DNA from: Cystobacter fuscus
GTDB taxonomy: Bacteria > Myxococcota > Myxococcia > Myxococcales > Myxococcaceae
Direction of reading: 5' to 3'
Assembly: GCF_002305875.1 (NCBI RefSeq)
Contig: NZ_CP022098.1
Span: forward strand, 8,122,001-8,186,000
Length of the DNA stretch: 64,000 nt
Within the stretch, counting starts at the first letter, position 1; each line of letters opens with the position of its first letter. The notes under the pieces were generated by a model. That model worked only from the letters and a program-made list of their open reading frames with translations, did not search any database and was not told where the DNA came from. Positions 2,487 to 28,264 of this stretch are shown here, piece by piece. The position numbers and the translations under genes are program-made.

Positions 2487-3274
2487 TAGTCCTGTTCATG
2501 GGTGATGTGGTGGGCAAGCCAGGGCTGCTGGCCGTGCGCACCCTCCTGCCCAAGTTGATCGCGCGGCACTCGGTGGACCTGGTCATCGCCAACGCTGAAA
2601 ACAGCGAGGGCGGTGCCGGCATCTCCCCCGAGTCCGCCGAGGCGCTGCTCGACAGTGAGGTCAACCTCCTGACGAGCGGCAATCATTTCTGGACCAAGAA
2701 GGTCATTCTTCCCTGGGTGGAGGAGCATCCGCACCTGCTCTTGCGGCCGGCCAACTACCCCAAGGGGGCGCCGGGACGCGGGCACACCGTCATCCAGACG
2801 CCGGACGGGCGCAAGCTCGGGGTGCTCAACCTCGAGGGGCGCGTGTTCATGAAGCCCCTGGACAACCCGTTCGCGGTGGCGCCGGAGCTCGTGGCGGAGC
2901 TGCGCAAGCAAACGCCCTGCATCCTCGTGGACATGCACTGCGAGGCCACCAGCGAGAAGAACGCCATGGGCGCGCACCTGGACGGCAAGGTGTCCGCCGT
3001 GGTGGGCACGCACACCCACGTGCAGACGGCCGACGAGCGCATCCTCCCGGGCGGCACCGCCTTCATCACCGACGTGGGCATGTGCGGCCCGCTCGACTCC
3101 GTCATCGGCGTGCGCAAGGAGCTGTCCATCGAGCGCTTCGTCACCCTGCGCCACAACCAGTACGAGGTCGCCAAGAACCTCGTCTACCTCCAGGGCGTGG
3201 TCATCGAGCTGGATGACAAGACGGGCAAGGCGCGCTCCATCCAGCGCATCCGCGAGCACCTGCCGGGCACCTAG
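2483..3274 (+). CDS. YmdB-type metallophosphoesterase (TIGR00282 family)
   Basis: The 263-residue protein is a full-length member of the TIGR00282/YmdB calcineurin-like family. The Bacillus subtilis member is a 2',3'-cyclic-AMP phosphodiesterase that affects biofilm and motility decisions. Metal-ligand segments are all visible: MGDVVGKPG near the N-terminus, ANAENSEGG, TSGNHFW, DMHCEATSEK and GTHTHVQTAD. It starts with GTG inside the cyclo-ligase stop (GTGA overlap), so it is in the same operon. The pairing with a folate gene looks like operon packing rather than shared chemistry (inference). The substrate here is unproven. Confidence 0.9.
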   Translation: MIVLFMGDVVGKPGLLAVRTLLPKLIARHSVDLVIANAENSEGGAGISPESAEALLDSEVNLLTSGNHFWTKKVILPWVEEHPHLLLRPANYPKGAPGRGHTVIQTPDGRKLGVLNLEGRVFMKPLDNPFAVAPELVAELRKQTPCILVDMHCEATSEKNAMGAHLDGKVSAVVGTHTHVQTADERILPGGTAFITDVGMCGPLDSVIGVRKELSIERFVTLRHNQYEVAKNLVYLQGVVIELDDKTGKARSIQRIREHLPGT

Positions 3275-3323
3275 TACTATCTGCCGGAAAGTGGGGCCCT
3301 GGGCGAAGCCGCACCAGCGCCCC

Positions 3324-4106
3324 TCACTCATTCCGGAACCACTCCGCCGGGATGCCCAGCGCCGCGAGAATTCGCTCGGGCGAGTTCTCTCCCTTGATGT
3401 CACGGACAGCCGGCACAAAGGAATCGTCACGAGGCGGCAGCGCAAAGTGGCCGATGCATTCTCCTCCGCGCAGGACGTTGACAAAGAACATGTCCAGGTT
3501 CGGTGAGGCAATTACGCCATATGCCATCACATCTGGAAGCCGCTCCGAGAGCGTGATGTCGGCGAAGCCGACGTCGCCTGTTTCGCTGGAAACCCGGAGC
3601 CCTTGCGGTGTGTCCTCGAACCGGTAGTGTCCCGGAGGAAATGGGTCCCCGGCATCCTCCAGCGCGCGAGATGCCTCTTGCGCCCGAATACCCTCCACCA
3701 ATGCGACTTTGCGCAGCGGTCTCTTTGAGCTTGAGTCCGAGGGCAACTCACGGCCTGGCAGCAGACAGCCGAGAGACTCCGCCAGCGATTCTGGGTCCAC
3801 CTCCAAGACCTCCAACACACCCTTTCGCCACGACGTGACGGCCCACGGATCGTTGCCGCGATCGATCGCGTACACGGGCTCATCGACTTCGCGTGACAAA
3901 TCCTTGGCGATTTGGAACTCAGCCCCCACGTCGCTGGAGTCCGCACCCACGATGGCATGGTAACGGCCACGGCCCGGGATGACCTCGAAGGATGGCCCTT
4001 TCCCGTGCTCCTCGTCCCCCTCCAACATCAGCGCGGCACGAACGCGGCGCTCAAGCCGCGCTGGCTCGCCTGGAGTCAGGACTGCCCATAGAGGCCACCG
4101 GTTCAT
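3324..4106 (-). CDS. Putative immunity protein for the REase-fold toxin
   Basis: The 260-residue soluble, acidic protein has no signal peptide. Its ATG lies inside the stop codon of the large upstream toxin gene (ATGA overlap), the usual arrangement of a polymorphic toxin followed by its immunity gene. Codon use is less GC-biased than in neighbouring housekeeping genes. Several Asp/Glu clusters (MLEGDEEHG, DSSDVGAEF, LEDAGDPF) are typical of proteins that plug basic nuclease surfaces. I do not recognise the family; the immunity role is inferred from position and charge. It converges on the phosphoesterase gene across about 50 bases with no clear terminator. Confidence 0.6.
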   Translation of the reverse strand: MNRWPLWAVLTPGEPARLERRVRAALMLEGDEEHGKGPSFEVIPGRGRYHAIVGADSSDVGAEFQIAKDLSREVDEPVYAIDRGNDPWAVTSWRKGVLEVLEVDPESLAESLGCLLPGRELPSDSSSKRPLRKVALVEGIRAQEASRALEDAGDPFPPGHYRFEDTPQGLRVSSETGDVGFADITLSERLPDVMAYGVIASPNLDMFFVNVLRGGECIGHFALPPRDDSFVPAVRDIKGENSPERILAALGIPAEWFRNE

Positions 4107-7100
4107 GGCACACCTCCTGACAAGTTCTCCGGCAGATTCAGTGCCGCACGTAGCTGCTTCGTCTTGTCCAGGATGCGAGCCTCCTCTAGTTGAATGAGCT
4201 TTATTCCCGGCGACTGCTTGAGTAGGAAGTCCAAAAGCTTGGCTCTGGTCGGGCCGCTCAGGTTGTCTGTACTGACGAGAAACGGTTGTCCGTTAGGTGC
4301 CTTGGCTGCGTCCGCGAGTTGGTCGAGCAGGTGCTGGAGTTGCTTTACAAGCGCCTCCTGCTGTTCGTTGAGCTTGCTGCCGGCCCTGCGGGCCAGCCAT
4401 GAGTCAAGTGCCCTGCGCCAGCGGTTGTCGTTCCAGCCTTTGACCTCTACTCCATGTTGAAGCTTCGACCCCGTCATCGCCGTCAGCAGGTTGTCGATGA
4501 CGTGCCCTGCTTTCATTTTCACTTGCCGCCCGGTAAGTCGGAAGCCCGGGAAAAGTTTCTGTGCGTTGTCTTCGGTCAGCATTTCGGCCGCGACGCCTCG
4601 GAGTTGTTCGCGGACTCGCCGTTGAAGCTTCAGGTTCCACGGTTCTGCTGCTGCCTGCTGGAAGTCCTTCCACGGCGTCATCTTGTTCCTGCCCATGAAG
4701 TTGAGGTCCTTCATGAGCAGCCCTGTCGAGTGCAACCAGCCCAGGTCCACGCGGCTCCTGCCTGCTTTCCTCGCCAGCTCAGCCACGGCCTCCGCTTCCA
4801 AGTCTGGGTGGCTGACGAGCCACGCGGCCTCCTTCAGGAAGGCAAGCGGGTCCTTCAAGCTCGGAGCTCCCGAGCGCCTCAGTAATTCCGCGAGCGCCGG
4901 CTTCGCCGCACTGCGGGTGGCCGCACGCATGTTTTCCACCGCAGCGAGGTAGGCCTGGGCCTTGTCGGCCGGCAGGGCCGCCGCACGCCGCGCCACCGCG
5001 CTGTAGGCGCTCGCCATCTCTTGGCTTTCCGCCGCCAACTGCTTCAGCGCTCCCAGCGTCTTCTCGGCTTCCTCGGCCACGAGCCCCGCGCCGCGAATGC
5101 CCCCGAGGGCCCGTGCAGCGGCCATTTCCCCTCGTATGGCGAAGAAGACCTGCTTGAAGGCTTCGGCTCCGCCAGGAAGGGAGAAGCGCAGCCCGTCCGG
5201 TGTCGCAACCGCCCTACCCTCGGCGAGCATGCGCTCCAGCGTTTTCACCAGGGCCTGGACGGACTCCACCGACGCACGCAGTCCGGACGAGACCCGGGCG
5301 CCAGCCGCGCTCAACACCAGCCCTCCCCGGTGTACCAGCTCGCGTCCTATGCCCGAGGTGGCGAGCTTGTAGATATCCCGGCCAGCCAGCACCACCATGG
5401 CCACGTCATGTACCGCAAGAAAGTCCCGTCCCTCTGACGTCTGCGACAGCTCCTCCCGGTACGTGTCCACCACCGCGAGAGTCGCTACCAGCGAGACGCG
5501 GCCCACGAAGAGGCGCACCGCCGCTCCGCGTGCCGTCTCCAGCGTGCCGCCTTGCGCGGCTGTGGCTGGCACTCTTGTCCACAGCGGTGCCTTCGTCAGG
5601 GCGGAAACGGCGCCGTACACCATGTGCATCTCGCTGATGCGGCTCACTGAAGACCACACAAGTGCCTTGTCTGGCGTGGAAGCGAGCAGGGCCAACTCCA
5701 TGGCCGTCATCAGGTGCGAGCGCGGCTGTGGCCCATGCACTTCCACCCGCACCCATTCCAGTGGGTGCAGAGCCCGGCTGCGCGACGCCTCGTCCACCGA
5801 GGACAGGTAGCGGGCCTGGAACTCCTGCCGCACCGGCTGGAAGTACAGGGCCATGCGCCTGGAGGGCCCCACGGCTTCTCCGGGCAGAGCGGGTTCGGCT
5901 CCGAGGCGCACTCCCTGCTGCTCCTCCCACGCTTCCGGCGCCACCAACATCGTGGACACCAGCCCAGAGGGGACGTTGAGCAGGTATGTCCTCTCACCCT
6001 CACGCCCCAGGTGGATGGTGGGCAGGGACTCGAGGAGGTCCAGCACGAGGGGAAACGAGGCGAGTGCCTTCTGGGTGAAGGCCTGTCCCAGCAACACCTT
6101 GCTGTCCGGCGCGTTGCTGCCGAGCAGCTTCTCCAGCACCCCACTCGAAGTCAGCTTGCGCTCCAGGGGTGGAAACTCCCGGTCAGGCGTGGACACCACC
6201 ACACGCGCTAGCAGGTGCACGGCCTCCTCCTTCATGTCGGAGGTAAGCGCAGGACCTGTGAGGATGGTGTTGAAGACACCCAGTCGCTCGTCCGGGGTGA
6301 GGAGGGCGAGCACGTCGTGATCGAGGGAGACAAGGGGCTGGGGCGCATGCGGTGTCGCCGTGGCGAGGGCTGTCTGGAGCAGCTCTCGTCGCAAGGTCGC
6401 CAACTCGCCCGTGCCGGCTCCCAACCCCGGCCGCCAGTCCCCCGGTCGAATGAGGAGCGTGCCTGGGTAGTACCAGTAGGCATTGCCCTCGGGGTGCTCG
6501 AGTGGCTCGGGAGCGCCGGCAACAGTATTGAATTCGGCGCTGTAGCCCCGCCAGCGCCCGTCCTTCCCGGGGATGATGACGCGCGGGCTTCCACGGGAAG
6601 CGTTGCGCACGCGCAGCTCCGCACGCTCCAGGGATGTCTCCTCGGTGAGCAGCGGCAAGGTACGCACCTGGATGCTGGAGCCGTCGGCGAAATAGAAGCG
6701 GCCCACCACGCTGCCCGGGGCGAGGACGGGCGAGCCATCCGTGACGCTGTAGCTCGCCGTGAATCGTTTGGAGTGCAGAACGATGGCCTTCCGCAGGGGC
6801 TCCGCGGCCTCGCCGAGGATGTGCCCGCGCTGCGACTCGTCCCTCAAGGGCTCAAGCGCCTGGAGATACCGGTCGAAGGAGCTCTGTCCGGCCCCGTCCA
6901 GAATGTCCGAGCGTTGAGCCCAGCGCAGGCCTCGCTCCACCAGTGCGGCGGCCCCGGCCCTGTTCAGGGAAGCCCCCGAAAGTTGGGAGCGGCTCCAAGC
7001 GACATCCGCCGCCAGATGTGCATCCAGGGCATGGCGCATGGTGGCGAGCAACTCCGGCACGAGCGCTGGCGGGTGGCGCACGCGCACACAGACTTGGAGG

Positions 7101-24139: not shown

Positions 24140-24462
24140 GCCCAGGATCCTCGCACCCGCACGCCCCGGGATAGGGCGAGGTCTCCCAACCGTCTCGTCT
24201 TCTCACCATTGTCCAGCGTGGAATCCTCCAGGAGCTCTCGCGCGGGACTGGCATCAAGCTCCAACCCGAAAACCATCACATACTCCATGAGCGAGGCGAC
24301 CTCCTGCTCCGTGCGAAATCCTCGCGCGTGCAATCGTTGGAGCACCTTCGAAGCAATGTCCCGAGCCTCGGGAGGCGGAATGGAGTTCATCCTGTATGGA
24401 AACGTGTCATAGAGATGCTGCACGACGCGTTGAACGAAACCCGACTTGTAGTCGAAGACCAC
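24136..24462 (-). CDS. Small T6SS-effector-associated protein
   Basis: The ~108-residue helical protein has the pattern FVQRVVQHLYDTFP...GFRTEQEVASLMEYVMVFG, which resembles the small 'RxFPxxx...GIxSExDVxxYxxLMFxxG' proteins found beside T6SS effectors in proteobacteria (recollection, not a search). GTG at 24462 is the nearest standard start, but the frame continues to a CTG at 24492 behind GGAGGGG, giving a better N-terminus (KISRTQFEKVV). It overlaps the LysM/M15 gene by four bases and is probably translated with it, perhaps as an adaptor. Confidence 0.55.
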   Translation of the reverse strand: MVFDYKSGFVQRVVQHLYDTFPYRMNSIPPPEARDIASKVLQRLHARGFRTEQEVASLMEYVMVFGLELDASPARELLEDSTLDNGEKTRRLGDLALSRGVRVRGSWA

Positions 24463-24624
24463 CTTTTCGAACTGCGTCCTGGAGATTTTCAGCTTCCCCT
24501 CCGAGCATGGCCCCGCTTCACGTTACTACCGGCTCACGGTCCACGTCATCCGAGCCACGTCCGTTGTGGTGCCCTTCATGATGCGTGTGACCCGAAATCA
24601 GGGGAAAGAGCCTCTATCTGGTTC

Positions 24625-26154
24625 ATGACCAATTCCAGCCTTCGTCCGACCAAGACCCGTTCCAGACTCCCTGACAACCGCTCCAGGTGGCTCCTGGGTG
24701 CCACGAGCGCGACGCTGCTCCTCACGAGCGCATGCACCCCGGCGAGCGGTTCGCCCGACGGGCAGGACGACACCACCGAGGCCGCCTCCAGCGCGCTGCG
24801 CACCTCCGGAGTGAGCTTCAAGACGGTGCTCGGCAACCGCTACGTGGGCGCCCAGAACAACGGCGGTGGCGCGGTCATCGCGACGGCGACGAGCGCCCAG
24901 GCGTGGGAGCAGTTCACCCTCGATGACATCAATGGTGGCTCGCTCGAGAGCGGAGACACGGTCTTCATCCTCGCGGGCACCGGGCAGTACTTCCAGGCCG
25001 CCAACGGCGGCGGCTCCTCGCTCAACGCCGCCAGCGCGAATGCCCTCGGGTGGGAGACGTTCCGCATCGTCAAGCAGAGTGGAAGCGGAGTGATCGCCAA
25101 CGGCGACATCGTCGGCCTGCAGACGGTGACGACGGGCCACTGGGTGTCCGCGGAGAATGGCGGCGGCGGCACGGTGTTCGCGTACGGCGGCGCGTTCGGC
25201 CCGTGGGAGCAGTTGGCGATCTCCGGCCTGCCCTCGGGCCCGACGACGCCGCCGCCGACGACGACGCGGACGCGCGTCGTGGGCTATCTGCCCAACTGGT
25301 ACGGCTCCTACGCGAGCTGGGTCGGCCGGGTGGACTTCGACAAGCTCACCCATGTGAACCTCGCCTTCGCCCTGGGTGACGCGAACGGGCACCTCGAGCT
25401 GGCGCCGAGCAGCGACCTCGCGACGTTCGTGAACGCCGCGCATGCCAAGGGCGTGAAGGTGTTCCCCTCGCTCTGTGGTGGCGGTGGAGACGGCCGGATC
25501 ACCCCCTTCTACCAGCCCAGCAAGGTCGATGCCTTCGTGGACCACATCATCGACTTCGTGGTGTCGAACAACATGGACGGCATCGACGTGGACGTGGAGG
25601 CGCCGGATCGCATGGGTGCCGCGTATGACACGTTCATCGCGAAGTTGATCGCCAAGGCGCGTCCTCGCGGTCTTCCCGTGACGGCCGCCGTCTCGCAGTG
25701 GATGCAGTACGGCATGTCGGACACCACGCTGCGGTCCTTCGACTTCATCACCGTCATGTCCTACGACAACGCGGGCACCTGGACGGGCGCGGGCGAGCAC
25801 TCGAGCTATGCGCAGGCCCAGACCGCGCTCGCCTTCTATACGAACAAGGGGGTGTCGAAGGACAAGATCGTGCTCGGAGTGCCCTTCTACGGCTACTGCT
25901 GGGGCAACTGTGGCGGCCAGAGCAGCACGTACGTGCTCTACAAGGACATCCTCGCGAAGTACCCGAACGCCTGGAACGCGGATTGGATCAGCGCCGACGG
26001 CGCCCAGTACTCGTACAACGGACTCGCGACCATGCGCGCGAAGACGACCCTGGGCAAGCAGTACGGCGGAATCATGATCTGGGAGCTGGCCGGAGACCAG
26101 AGCACCTCGAGCGAGCAGTCCCTGCTTCGCGCCATCCACGGCGCGCTGCAGTAG
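24625..26154 (+). CDS. GH18 chitinase lipoprotein with beta-trefoil module
   Basis: The 509-residue enzyme should cut beta-1,4-GlcNAc chains (chitin or related). Its N-terminus is basic, then hydrophobic, ending in the lipobox LLTSAC, so it is a lipoprotein, perhaps surface-exposed. Residues ~55-200 are three repeats of a fascin-like beta-trefoil (GNRYVGAQNNGGGAV...WEQFTL, TGQYFQAANGGGSS...WETFRI, TGHWVSAENGGGGTV...WEQLAI). A Pro/Thr linker leads to GH18, with the catalytic DGIDVDVE ending at Glu325, plus FDFITVMSYD and GVPFYGY. The same trefoil module occurs in the gene at 43846. It probably serves prey or fungal wall degradation (inference). Confidence 0.92.
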   Translation: MTNSSLRPTKTRSRLPDNRSRWLLGATSATLLLTSACTPASGSPDGQDDTTEAASSALRTSGVSFKTVLGNRYVGAQNNGGGAVIATATSAQAWEQFTLDDINGGSLESGDTVFILAGTGQYFQAANGGGSSLNAASANALGWETFRIVKQSGSGVIANGDIVGLQTVTTGHWVSAENGGGGTVFAYGGAFGPWEQLAISGLPSGPTTPPPTTTRTRVVGYLPNWYGSYASWVGRVDFDKLTHVNLAFALGDANGHLELAPSSDLATFVNAAHAKGVKVFPSLCGGGGDGRITPFYQPSKVDAFVDHIIDFVVSNNMDGIDVDVEAPDRMGAAYDTFIAKLIAKARPRGLPVTAAVSQWMQYGMSDTTLRSFDFITVMSYDNAGTWTGAGEHSSYAQAQTALAFYTNKGVSKDKIVLGVPFYGYCWGNCGGQSSTYVLYKDILAKYPNAWNADWISADGAQYSYNGLATMRAKTTLGKQYGGIMIWELAGDQSTSSEQSLLRAIHGALQ

Positions 26155-26191: not shown

Positions 26192-26207
26192 AACTAAGAT
26201 CTTAGTT
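26192..26207. promoter_or_regulatory. BlaI-type operator 1
   Basis: AACTAAGATCTTAGTT is a perfect 16-bp palindrome, 49 bases before the BlaI-family repressor gene and AT-rich in a GC-rich setting. A second copy follows 23 bp further on (centre to centre). BlaI/MecI repressors bind dyads in their own promoter as dimers. The core here, ACTAAG-N2-CTTAGT, differs from the staphylococcal TACA/TGTA type. Confidence 0.75.
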
Positions 26208-26214
26208 GCCAATC

Positions 26215-26230
26215 AACTAAGGTCTTAGTA
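26215..26230. promoter_or_regulatory. BlaI-type operator 2
   Basis: AACTAAGGTCTTAGTA repeats operator 1 with the same ACTAAG...CTTAGT arms and one changed centre base. Two dyads spaced about two helical turns apart suggest cooperative repressor binding over the promoter. Its end is 25 bases from the repressor's ATG. Confidence 0.75.
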
Positions 26231-26255
26231 GTTTACGGTCCTGGAGGTCGGGACC

Positions 26256-26654
26256 ATGTCCAAGTCATCGCAGAACGAAGCTCCCAGGCCGCTCACGCCC
26301 GTGGAGCTGGAGCTGATGCAGCTCGTCTGGCGCAAGGACGAGGTGAGCGTGGCGGACGTGCTCGAGGCACTGCCTCCGGAGAGGAAGCTGGCCTACACCT
26401 CGGTGTCCACGGTGCTGCGCATCCTCGAGCAGAAGGGGGTGCTGCGCAGCCGGAAGGTGGGCCGGGGACACCTGTACTCGGCGGTGCTGCCGCGCGAGGC
26501 CTACGAGCTTCAGAGCGTGCGCCACCTGGTGGAGACGGTGTTCGACGGCACGCCCTCCGCGCTGGTGGAGCGCCTGGTCGAGGCCGTCCCGCTCTCCCCC
26601 GAGGAGGTGGAGCAGATCCGCAAGCTGCTCGCCAAGAAGGACCCGCGATCATGA
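26256..26654 (+). CDS. BlaI/MecI/CopY-family repressor
   Basis: The 132-residue winged-helix DNA-binding protein has PVELELMQLVWRKDEVSVADVLEAL, the recognition region LAYTSVSTVLRILEQKGVLRSRKVGRGHLYSAVL, and a C-terminal dimer part (HLVETVFDGTPSALVERLVE). In BlaI/MecI systems an M56 membrane protease, once triggered, causes repressor cleavage and derepression. Its stop overlaps the start of such an M56 gene (ATGA), and two matching palindromes precede it, so autoregulation is very likely. Confidence 0.93.
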   Translation: MSKSSQNEAPRPLTPVELELMQLVWRKDEVSVADVLEALPPERKLAYTSVSTVLRILEQKGVLRSRKVGRGHLYSAVLPREAYELQSVRHLVETVFDGTPSALVERLVEAVPLSPEEVEQIRKLLAKKDPRS

Positions 26655-28264
26655 GCGCCCTCGCGAGCACGTGGACCACGGGCTATGTGAGCGTGGCGCT
26701 GCTGCTCACCCTGGGCTACGCGCTGCTGCGCGCCGCCCTCGCGAGCCTGGGGCGGCTGGGCCTCCACCTGTCGGCACGGCAGACGTTGTGGGCCGGGCGC
26801 GTGACGCTGGCGCTGGCGCTCCTGCTGCCCCCCGCGTGCATGAGCGTGCGCGGGCTGGTGCCCACCGGGCCGCTCTTCACCTTCGATCGCTCCGTGGTGC
26901 GGCTCACCACGCGATTGCCAGAGCCGGCCTGGAACGCGCCTCCACGCACCACCGCGTCCCCCCCCGCCGAGGCGCCCGCGTCCTTCCCGGTGGGGCTGGC
27001 CGTGGTGCTGCTGCTCGGGACGGCCACGGGGGTGCACTGCGCGCGGGAGCTCCGTCAGCACCTGCGGCTGCTCCGCCAGCTCGAAGCGCTGCCCCGCGTG
27101 CGCCAGGTGGGCCGTGTGGCCGTGGTCCTCCTCGACACCGGGGCCACCGCCTTCTCCACCTGGTTCCCGCGTCCGGCGCCCCACCCCAGCGCCTGGGTGG
27201 CGGTGCCCGCCCATCTCCTGGAGGACCCACCGGGCCTGCGGATGACGGTCCTGCACGAGCTCCAACACCACCGCCAACGCGACACGGTGCTCGCCTACGT
27301 GCGCCTGCTCCTGGACGGGCTCTTCTTCTGGAACCCCGCGGTGCGCGCCTTCGGGCGCTGGCTCGCCACCCGCCAGGAGTTCGCCTGCGACGAGGCGCTC
27401 GTCTCCGGAGGCAAGGCCCGTCCGCACGACTACGCACGCTGCCTGCTCGACGCGGCCCTGCGCGCCTCGGGTTCACCCCCGCTTCCCGTCAGTGTCACGG
27501 GCATGGCCCACCCCACCACCAGGAGGATCGAAATGCTGTTCCAATCCCGTCCCAGCCGAAACCACCGCGCCCTCGGGCTCGTCGCCACCATCGCCCTGAC
27601 GCTCGTCCCCCTCACCCTGTGGGCACAGAGCGCCACCCGTGGCCGCGCGGTGACGCTCACCGAGGCCCAGGCCCTCGCGCGCTCCTCGCAACCCGAGGGC
27701 GACCTTCCCGTGGTGGTGGATGAGCTGGTGATGGAGAAACTCAACCAGCTGGTGACCACGCCCAAGGGCCGCGCCTTCATGAAGAAGGCCCTGGGGAACC
27801 TGGCCACCCACCGCGAGGCGCTCACGCGCACGCTGCGCGCCCGGGGGCTGCCGGAGGGGCTGCTGGCCGTGGCGATGGTGGAGTCGGCGGTGACCAACAT
27901 GCCGGAGACGTCGACGAATCCCTCGCTGGCTCCCGGCATGAGAGGCGCGGGAGTGTGGATGTTCATCCCCTCGACGGCGCGCCAGTATGGACTCCAGGTC
28001 GACGCGGAGCGTGACGAGCGGCTCGACGTGGCGCGAGAGACGGAGGCCGCCGCGGCCCTCTTCTCCGATCTGCACGGCCGCTATGGCGACTGGCGACTGG
28101 CGCTCGCGGCCTACAACCAGGGCGACAAGAAGGTGGACGAGGTGCTGAGCGCGACGGGCCAGCGCGATGCCAGCGCGCTCGCCCGCGCCGGCCACATCAA
28201 TGACTACGTGAGCACCGTGCAGGCCGGACTCCTCGTCCTGCGCAACCCCCACCTGCTCGACTGA
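26651..28264 (+). CDS. M56 (BlaR1/MecR1-like) membrane metallopeptidase fused to a lytic transglycosylase domain
   Basis: In the 537-residue protein, the N-terminal half is a BlaR1-type M56 protease with TM segments near residues 10-32, 47-63, 112-130 and 304-325, the zinc site HELQH (His202, Glu203, His206) and Glu243/CDEA at 246-249. BlaR1 normally ends in a penicillin-binding sensor; here residues ~355-537 are an SLT/MltD-like transglycosylase: catalytic Glu411 in AMVESAV, GAGVWMFIPSTARQYG, and LALAAYNQG. It would cut or sense glycan strands in the periplasm. It is coupled to the BlaI gene by an ATGA overlap. The prediction is a repressor-protease circuit sensing peptidoglycan itself. Confidence 0.85.
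   Translation: MSALASTWTTGYVSVALLLTLGYALLRAALASLGRLGLHLSARQTLWAGRVTLALALLLPPACMSVRGLVPTGPLFTFDRSVVRLTTRLPEPAWNAPPRTTASPPAEAPASFPVGLAVVLLLGTATGVHCARELRQHLRLLRQLEALPRVRQVGRVAVVLLDTGATAFSTWFPRPAPHPSAWVAVPAHLLEDPPGLRMTVLHELQHHRQRDTVLAYVRLLLDGLFFWNPAVRAFGRWLATRQEFACDEALVSGGKARPHDYARCLLDAALRASGSPPLPVSVTGMAHPTTRRIEMLFQSRPSRNHRALGLVATIALTLVPLTLWAQSATRGRAVTLTEAQALARSSQPEGDLPVVVDELVMEKLNQLVTTPKGRAFMKKALGNLATHREALTRTLRARGLPEGLLAVAMVESAVTNMPETSTNPSLAPGMRGAGVWMFIPSTARQYGLQVDAERDERLDVARETEAAAALFSDLHGRYGDWRLALAAYNQGDKKVDEVLSATGQRDASALARAGHINDYVSTVQAGLLVLRNPHLLD

Follow-up and report, generated by a model that had tools for sequence, protein, structure and literature searches.

We describe a two-gene module, a blaI repressor gene and a gene joining a BlaR1-like M56 protease to an MltD-type lytic transglycosylase (SLT), in a 64,000 nt window of the chromosome of Cystobacter fuscus, a predatory soil bacterium (contig NZ_CP022098.1, positions 8,122,001–8,186,000). 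Our preferred reading, to which we assign a probability of roughly 60%, is that of a self-regulated cell-wall enzyme: a disturbance of the wall would be perceived by the SLT domain and passed on to the M56 protease, BlaI would be removed, and more of the SLT enzyme would be made. What can be read directly from the sequences is the architecture of the protein, its intact catalytic residues, its predicted topology, the pairing with BlaI, a tandem operator, and the near-absence of further copies of this operator in myxobacterial genomes. The features of the module, in window coordinates, are as follows:

26192–26207: operator 1, AACTAAGATCTTAGTT, a perfect 16-bp palindrome in the sequence, with the same box at family loci
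26206–26234, + strand: likely sigma-70-type promoter, TTGCCA-N17-TAGTTT; distant relatives also have hexamers at this offset
26215–26230: operator 2, AACTAAGGTCTTAGTA, within the spacer of the likely promoter, its center 23 bp from that of operator 1
26256–26654, + strand: blaI, winged-helix repressor of the Penicillinase_R family, 132 aa (PF03965, E 8.1e-30, 104 bits)
26651–28264, + strand: M56-SLT fusion gene, ATG start, 537 aa, its start overlapping the blaI stop by ATGA
26651–27625, + strand: aa 1–325, four-TM BlaR1-like part with the M56 gluzincin domain (Pfam, hydropathy, fold match and conserved residues)
27686–28261, + strand: aa 346–537, predicted periplasmic MltD-type lytic transglycosylase domain with catalytic Glu411 (PF01464 and MltD fold)

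A BlaR1-Like Protease Carrying a Lytic Transglycosylase

A preliminary description, made from the letters alone, had proposed that an M56 protease and an SLT enzyme are joined here in one polypeptide, that the enzyme replaces the penicillin sensor of BlaR1, and that the protein is coupled to a BlaI repressor; all three proposals held. The fusion gene is a single open frame without internal stops, and its product matches both Peptidase_M56 (PF05569; aa 197–296, E 1.8e-15, 57.3 bits against a curated cut-off of 31) and SLT (PF01464; aa 397–508, E 1.7e-17, also above the curated cut-off). The nearest NCBIfam models are those for murein transglycosylase D and for a generic BlaR1, and each scores far under its full-length cut-off, as is expected because each model fits one half of the fusion. 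The motifs that had been named lie where they were placed: HELQH at aa 202–206, Glu411, and GAGVWMFIP at aa 432–440. A Pfam search of the C-terminus found no penicillin-binding, class D-like sensor domain (PF00905); SLT stands alone there, with an MltD fold. LysM repeats are likewise absent after the SLT domain, since the catalytic domain extends to the last residue of the fusion (aa 537); LysM is present in an MltD-like protein encoded elsewhere in the genome (L127).

Hydropathy and the positive-inside rule, applied over 28 homologues, predict an N-out protein with transmembrane helices at aa 8–26, 52–70, 116–134, and 307–325, with the loop containing HExxH (aa 135–306, net charge +11) inside and the SLT part outside. 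The predicted layout is that of the M56 family, with a cytoplasmic protease between TM3 and TM4 and an extracytoplasmic C-terminal domain. The preliminary description had named a cytoplasmic SLT domain as fatal to its proposal; the prediction rejects such a location. An AxA-like motif after TM4, looked at with signal-peptidase release in mind, is present in part of the M56-SLT family only; release of the sensor by signal peptidase after TM4 has been reported for BlaR1. An AlphaFold2 model built from the 28 homologues has a mean pLDDT of 83, with only the loop at aa 70–112 (EL1) poorly predicted; in BlaR1, EL1 docks in the sensor. Its N-terminal half matches the cryo-EM structure of Staphylococcus aureus BlaR1 (8exs; Z 17.5 over 240 aa), and its C-terminal half matches MltD of Pseudomonas aeruginosa (8rhi; Z 20.0, 2.2 Å over 178 aa).

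The residues known to be key in BlaR1 are the HExxH...E motif, Tyr261, and an active-site Asp and Arg (PMC9834060), and their counterparts in the fusion (H202, H206, E243, D247, Y261, and R292) are invariant or nearly so. Among 66 distinct family sequences, H202, E203, H206, and E243 (HExxH plus the third-ligand Glu) are invariant, E411 and S412 of the transglycosylase are equally unchanged in 66/66, and in the AYN motif Y488 is found in 65 and N489 in 62. Conservation of both catalytic Glu residues extends to members with only about 22–33% identity. That E203 and the pair E411–S412 never vary argues, at the level of sequence, that both the protease and the transglycosylase are kept functional, and the SLT domain is probably an active MltD-like enzyme.

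The fusion thus shares with BlaR1/MecR1 (MEROPS M56) the four transmembrane helices, a gluzincin M56 domain in which the key residues correspond, the extracytoplasmic C-terminal domain after TM4, a partner gene for a winged-helix repressor, and operators in the promoter. It differs in having an MltD-type enzyme in place of the penicillin-binding sensor and in its apparent regulon, which is its own operon, whereas BlaR1/MecR1 act on beta-lactamase or PBP2a. Lytic transglycosylases of family 1 cut glycan non-hydrolytically, with 1,6-anhydroMurNAc as the product. With MltD (family 1, PF01464) the fusion shares the catalytic fold (8rhi/8rhe, Z 20), the catalytic Glu within an ES motif, and an AYN-type motif after it, but it lacks LysM domains and is anchored by a BlaR1-like membrane protease. 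As judged from these sequence features, the protein is a member of M56 and its partner a member of BlaI, and it is not a beta-lactam receptor.

We found no account of M56-SLT proteins in the open-access literature, in agreement with the preliminary description, which knew of none. Automatic annotation may already give such proteins a composite domain name, which would be naming and not description; to our knowledge, no BlaR1-type receptor with a glycan-cutting enzyme as its head has been reported earlier. Two transglycosylases studied in Myxococcus xanthus sporulation were considered as the same protein and rejected by length, LtgA having about 243 aa and LtgB about 710 aa (PMC12265050).

The BlaI Partner and the Gene Neighborhood

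Every fusion gene for which upstream sequence is available is directly preceded by blaI, mostly with the 4-base ATGA overlap or in close abutment, and the pairing with BlaI is in this sense obligate. The features of the BlaI/MecI family are all found in this partner: the Penicillinase_R winged helix, the pairing with an M56 gene, and dyad operators at the likely promoter. A comparison of 30 loci revealed no further neighbor common across lineages beyond genus-level synteny; the other widespread neighbor clusters were mostly antisense frames of blaI and the fusion gene themselves. A SnoaL-like downstream gene was rejected as a conserved operon member, not being common across lineages. Just upstream of the module and on the same strand lies a secreted-looking GH18 chitinase-type gene (24340–26154), which showed no conserved association with the module.

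Two relatives carry copies that look damaged. At one locus (L068; G047:C1:9846500-9854500, 3150–6580), blaI and the tandem operator are kept and the M56-SLT gene ends after about 25 codons, followed by what look by eye like DUF262-like and HipA-like genes; this is an apparent insertion that left the repressor behind. At another (L069, 1280–2870; genome G057), the fusion gene is frameshifted after a QEFACDEALV motif, which may be a sequencing error.

Distribution of the Fusion

The fusion is an old, conserved family present in three bacterial lineages, and not a single oddity. A scan of named genomes retrieved 35 loci, ranging from Archangium, Corallococcus, Pyxidicoccus, and Hyalangium to Bdellovibrionota and some gammaproteobacterial MAGs, two of which (L038 and L039) encode M56 proteins with other heads. 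Among 145 genomes of the order to which the window belongs, the full-length fusion occurs in about 50 Myxococcaceae genomes, with about 60–100% identity; it is also present in about 33 of 291 Bdellovibrionota genomes and in 7 of 36 genomes of one gammaproteobacterial order, which contains one partial match in addition. The preliminary description had called for a survey of this kind, and had named a frameshift or an assembly join as a danger to its proposal; neither applies, since dozens of independent genomes have the gene in the same unbroken frame. In the order of L025, the fusion was found in 1 of 196 genomes, the L025 MAG itself, so this record may be a binning error. Another record (L037, genome G159) is titled as a Lysobacteraceae MAG and is placed in the phylum of the Bdellovibrionota genomes, its title being probably mislabelled. 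Spread of the fusion by plasmids was rejected, as none of 72,556 plasmids gave a full-length match. In a tree of M56 sequences, the backbone of which is left open, the sequences from myxobacteria form a solid clade, which nests with some Bdellovibrionota forms (97/94), and the transpeptidase forms described below cluster together (93/91).

A Tandem Operator Essentially Confined to the Module

The preliminary description had missed a tandem palindromic operator before blaI. A tandem of AACTAA-N4-TTAGTT boxes, spaced by 22 or 23 bp, precedes blaI in 76/76 SLT-type loci; these represent 59 distinct upstream sequences, in all of which the tandem scores 20–24 of 24 positions, against a maximum of 19 of 24 in shuffled controls (n = 2780). 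It was also present at eight loci scanned afterwards, of which three duplicate loci in the earlier count. The operator of staphylococcal BlaI/MecI has a different sequence.

In C. fuscus, the exact core ACTAA-N4-TTAGT has two sites in the whole 12.3-Mb genome, which are operators 1 and 2, and allowing up to one mismatch yields 6 sites versus 30 for a reversed control pattern. Fusion-bearing Myxococcaceae genomes contain the exact core twice each, with the exceptions of G103 (one site) and G104 (three), and the sites are the same 23-bp pair in every genome with listed positions; most Myxococcaceae genomes without the fusion have zero exact core sites. In 17 non-myxobacterial genomes the strict tandem occurred at most once per genome and was found 11 times in all, by comparison of contig positions, 10 times at the M56-SLT module and once at an M56-M23 locus of SAR324. 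The operator is therefore essentially confined to the promoter of the module, which probably controls itself alone, although in AT-rich genomes degenerate or single operators may mark further targets.

The right arm of operator 1 and the next bases form a −35-like box, with a −10-like hexamer 17 bp further on; the promoter spacer is thus taken up by operator 2. Promoter-like hexamers (TTGACA-17-TATAAT) occur at a matching offset at a distant locus (L036), while a generic promoter scan gave zero matches at its threshold at the C. fuscus locus. We treat this promoter as inferred, because part of the hexamer match is dictated by the operator itself.

Related M56 Proteins with Other Heads

In Bdellovibrionota, the M56 proteins nearest to the fusion have, like BlaR1, a full transpeptidase domain (PF00905). 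Their loci (L118–L125) have closely related M56 and BlaI sequences and the same layout of tandem operators; however, the head is a PF00905 sensor and the boxes are mostly TACTAA-N4-TTAGTA, as against AACTAA-N4-TTAGTT for M56-SLT. This type sometimes coexists with the SLT form in one genome, where the shifted outer bases of the operator may insulate the two systems. A third combination, in a SAR324 MAG (L039, 4898–6888), consists of BlaI followed by M56 joined to an M23 endopeptidase and is preceded by tandem boxes of the ACTAA type; it resembles M56-SLT in joining M56 to a peptidoglycan hydrolase behind BlaI, and differs in that the hydrolase is an endopeptidase and not a transglycosylase. Combinations of M23 and M56 have been mentioned, without a reported function, in a review of M23 hydrolases (PMC9662197).

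The C. fuscus genome has three more M56 genes with BlaI-like partners (L001, L002, and L004). A penicillin-binding domain was not found in L001 or L002, and L004, by its length, looks like M56 alone; L002 has a repetitive C-terminal region and boxes of its own (ACGAAGGGCTTCGT and ACGAAGATGTTCGT).

A Putative Self-Regulated Wall Enzyme

Autocleavage and the cutting of BlaI are features of the BlaR1/MecR1 receptors proper; in S. aureus, BlaI is cut between Asn101 and Phe102. BlaR1 cleaves BlaI directly, the signal passing from the sensor to the protease (PMC9834060). By extension, a BlaI dimer would sit on the two operators, one of them inside the promoter spacer, and repress an operon that encodes only BlaI and the M56-SLT protein. 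In the periplasm, the SLT domain would bind, and probably cleave, glycan strands, and disturbed synthesis or integrity of the wall would change its occupancy; this change would be relayed through the transmembrane helices, as acylation is in BlaR1, and would release the cytoplasmic M56 protease for cleavage of BlaI. The derepressed operon would then produce more of the same transglycosylase until BlaI re-accumulates, a positive feedback that resets itself. We infer repression by BlaI, cleavage of BlaI by M56 and transglycosylase activity in this scheme, and the role of the SLT domain as a putative glycan sensor is drawn by analogy. Since BlaI apparently targets its own operon, with the transglycosylase-protease as the sole other product, a self-amplifying and self-resetting module is the simplest reading. 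The wall-integrity switch of the preliminary description survives in part: a BlaR1-like receptor with BlaI is there, and, with the operator at the promoter of the module only, the switch appears to act on the transglycosylase itself and not on a separate wall-stress regulon.

The same restriction lends some weight to a different view, in which the SLT domain is output only, the signal enters through the transmembrane region, the EL1 loop or a partner protein, and M56 serves solely to switch an inducible transglycosylase anchored in the membrane. With the operator at its own operon only, the transglycosylase is the sole evident product of induction, and invariance of Glu411 is what would be expected of an effector. 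However, the SLT domain occupies the exact position of the BlaR1 sensor, and the nearest M56 relatives have a penicillin-binding domain at that position; we consider this view rather unlikely. Some receptors use dead enzymes as sensors, and the SLT domain might by that precedent be catalytically dead or irrelevant, serving solely as a peptidoglycan-binding anchor or sensor; the invariance of Glu411, Ser412, and the surrounding motifs across very divergent members makes this very improbable.

The BlaR1/BlaI precedent would also allow the fusion to report wall damage to a wider BlaI regulon, for instance of genes for beta-lactamase or for sporulation, in the manner of staphylococcal bla/mec control. 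Such a regulon in myxobacteria is rejected by the operator counts, there being no further exact site in C. fuscus, nor in almost any other myxobacterium with the fusion, and fewer one-mismatch sites than in the reversed control (6 vs. 30); we hold it to be distinctly improbable. Finally, the chance that the gene is a frameshift, an assembly join or a chance ORF is practically nil: nothing at this locus suggests it, the frameshifted relative in G057 being the one case in point, and the fusion is found in one frame in Myxococcaceae, Bdellovibrionota, and a gammaproteobacterial order.

Returning to the self-regulated enzyme, we tentatively put forward a more specific and somewhat less probable form of it. 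A single chain would combine a glycan sensor, a repressor-cleaving protease and a wall-cutting enzyme, with its own operon as sole regulon; it would sense through a working transglycosylase active site and answer with more enzyme, and would be one of a set of M56 proteins with exchangeable wall-enzyme heads (transpeptidase, transglycosylase, and M23 endopeptidase). The tandem operator offers a ready reporter for the module, and the M56-SLT family illustrates how new heads can be put on the BlaR1 scaffold. If our reading is true, the protein would unite sensor, transducer, and effector in a single polypeptide, which is rarely seen.
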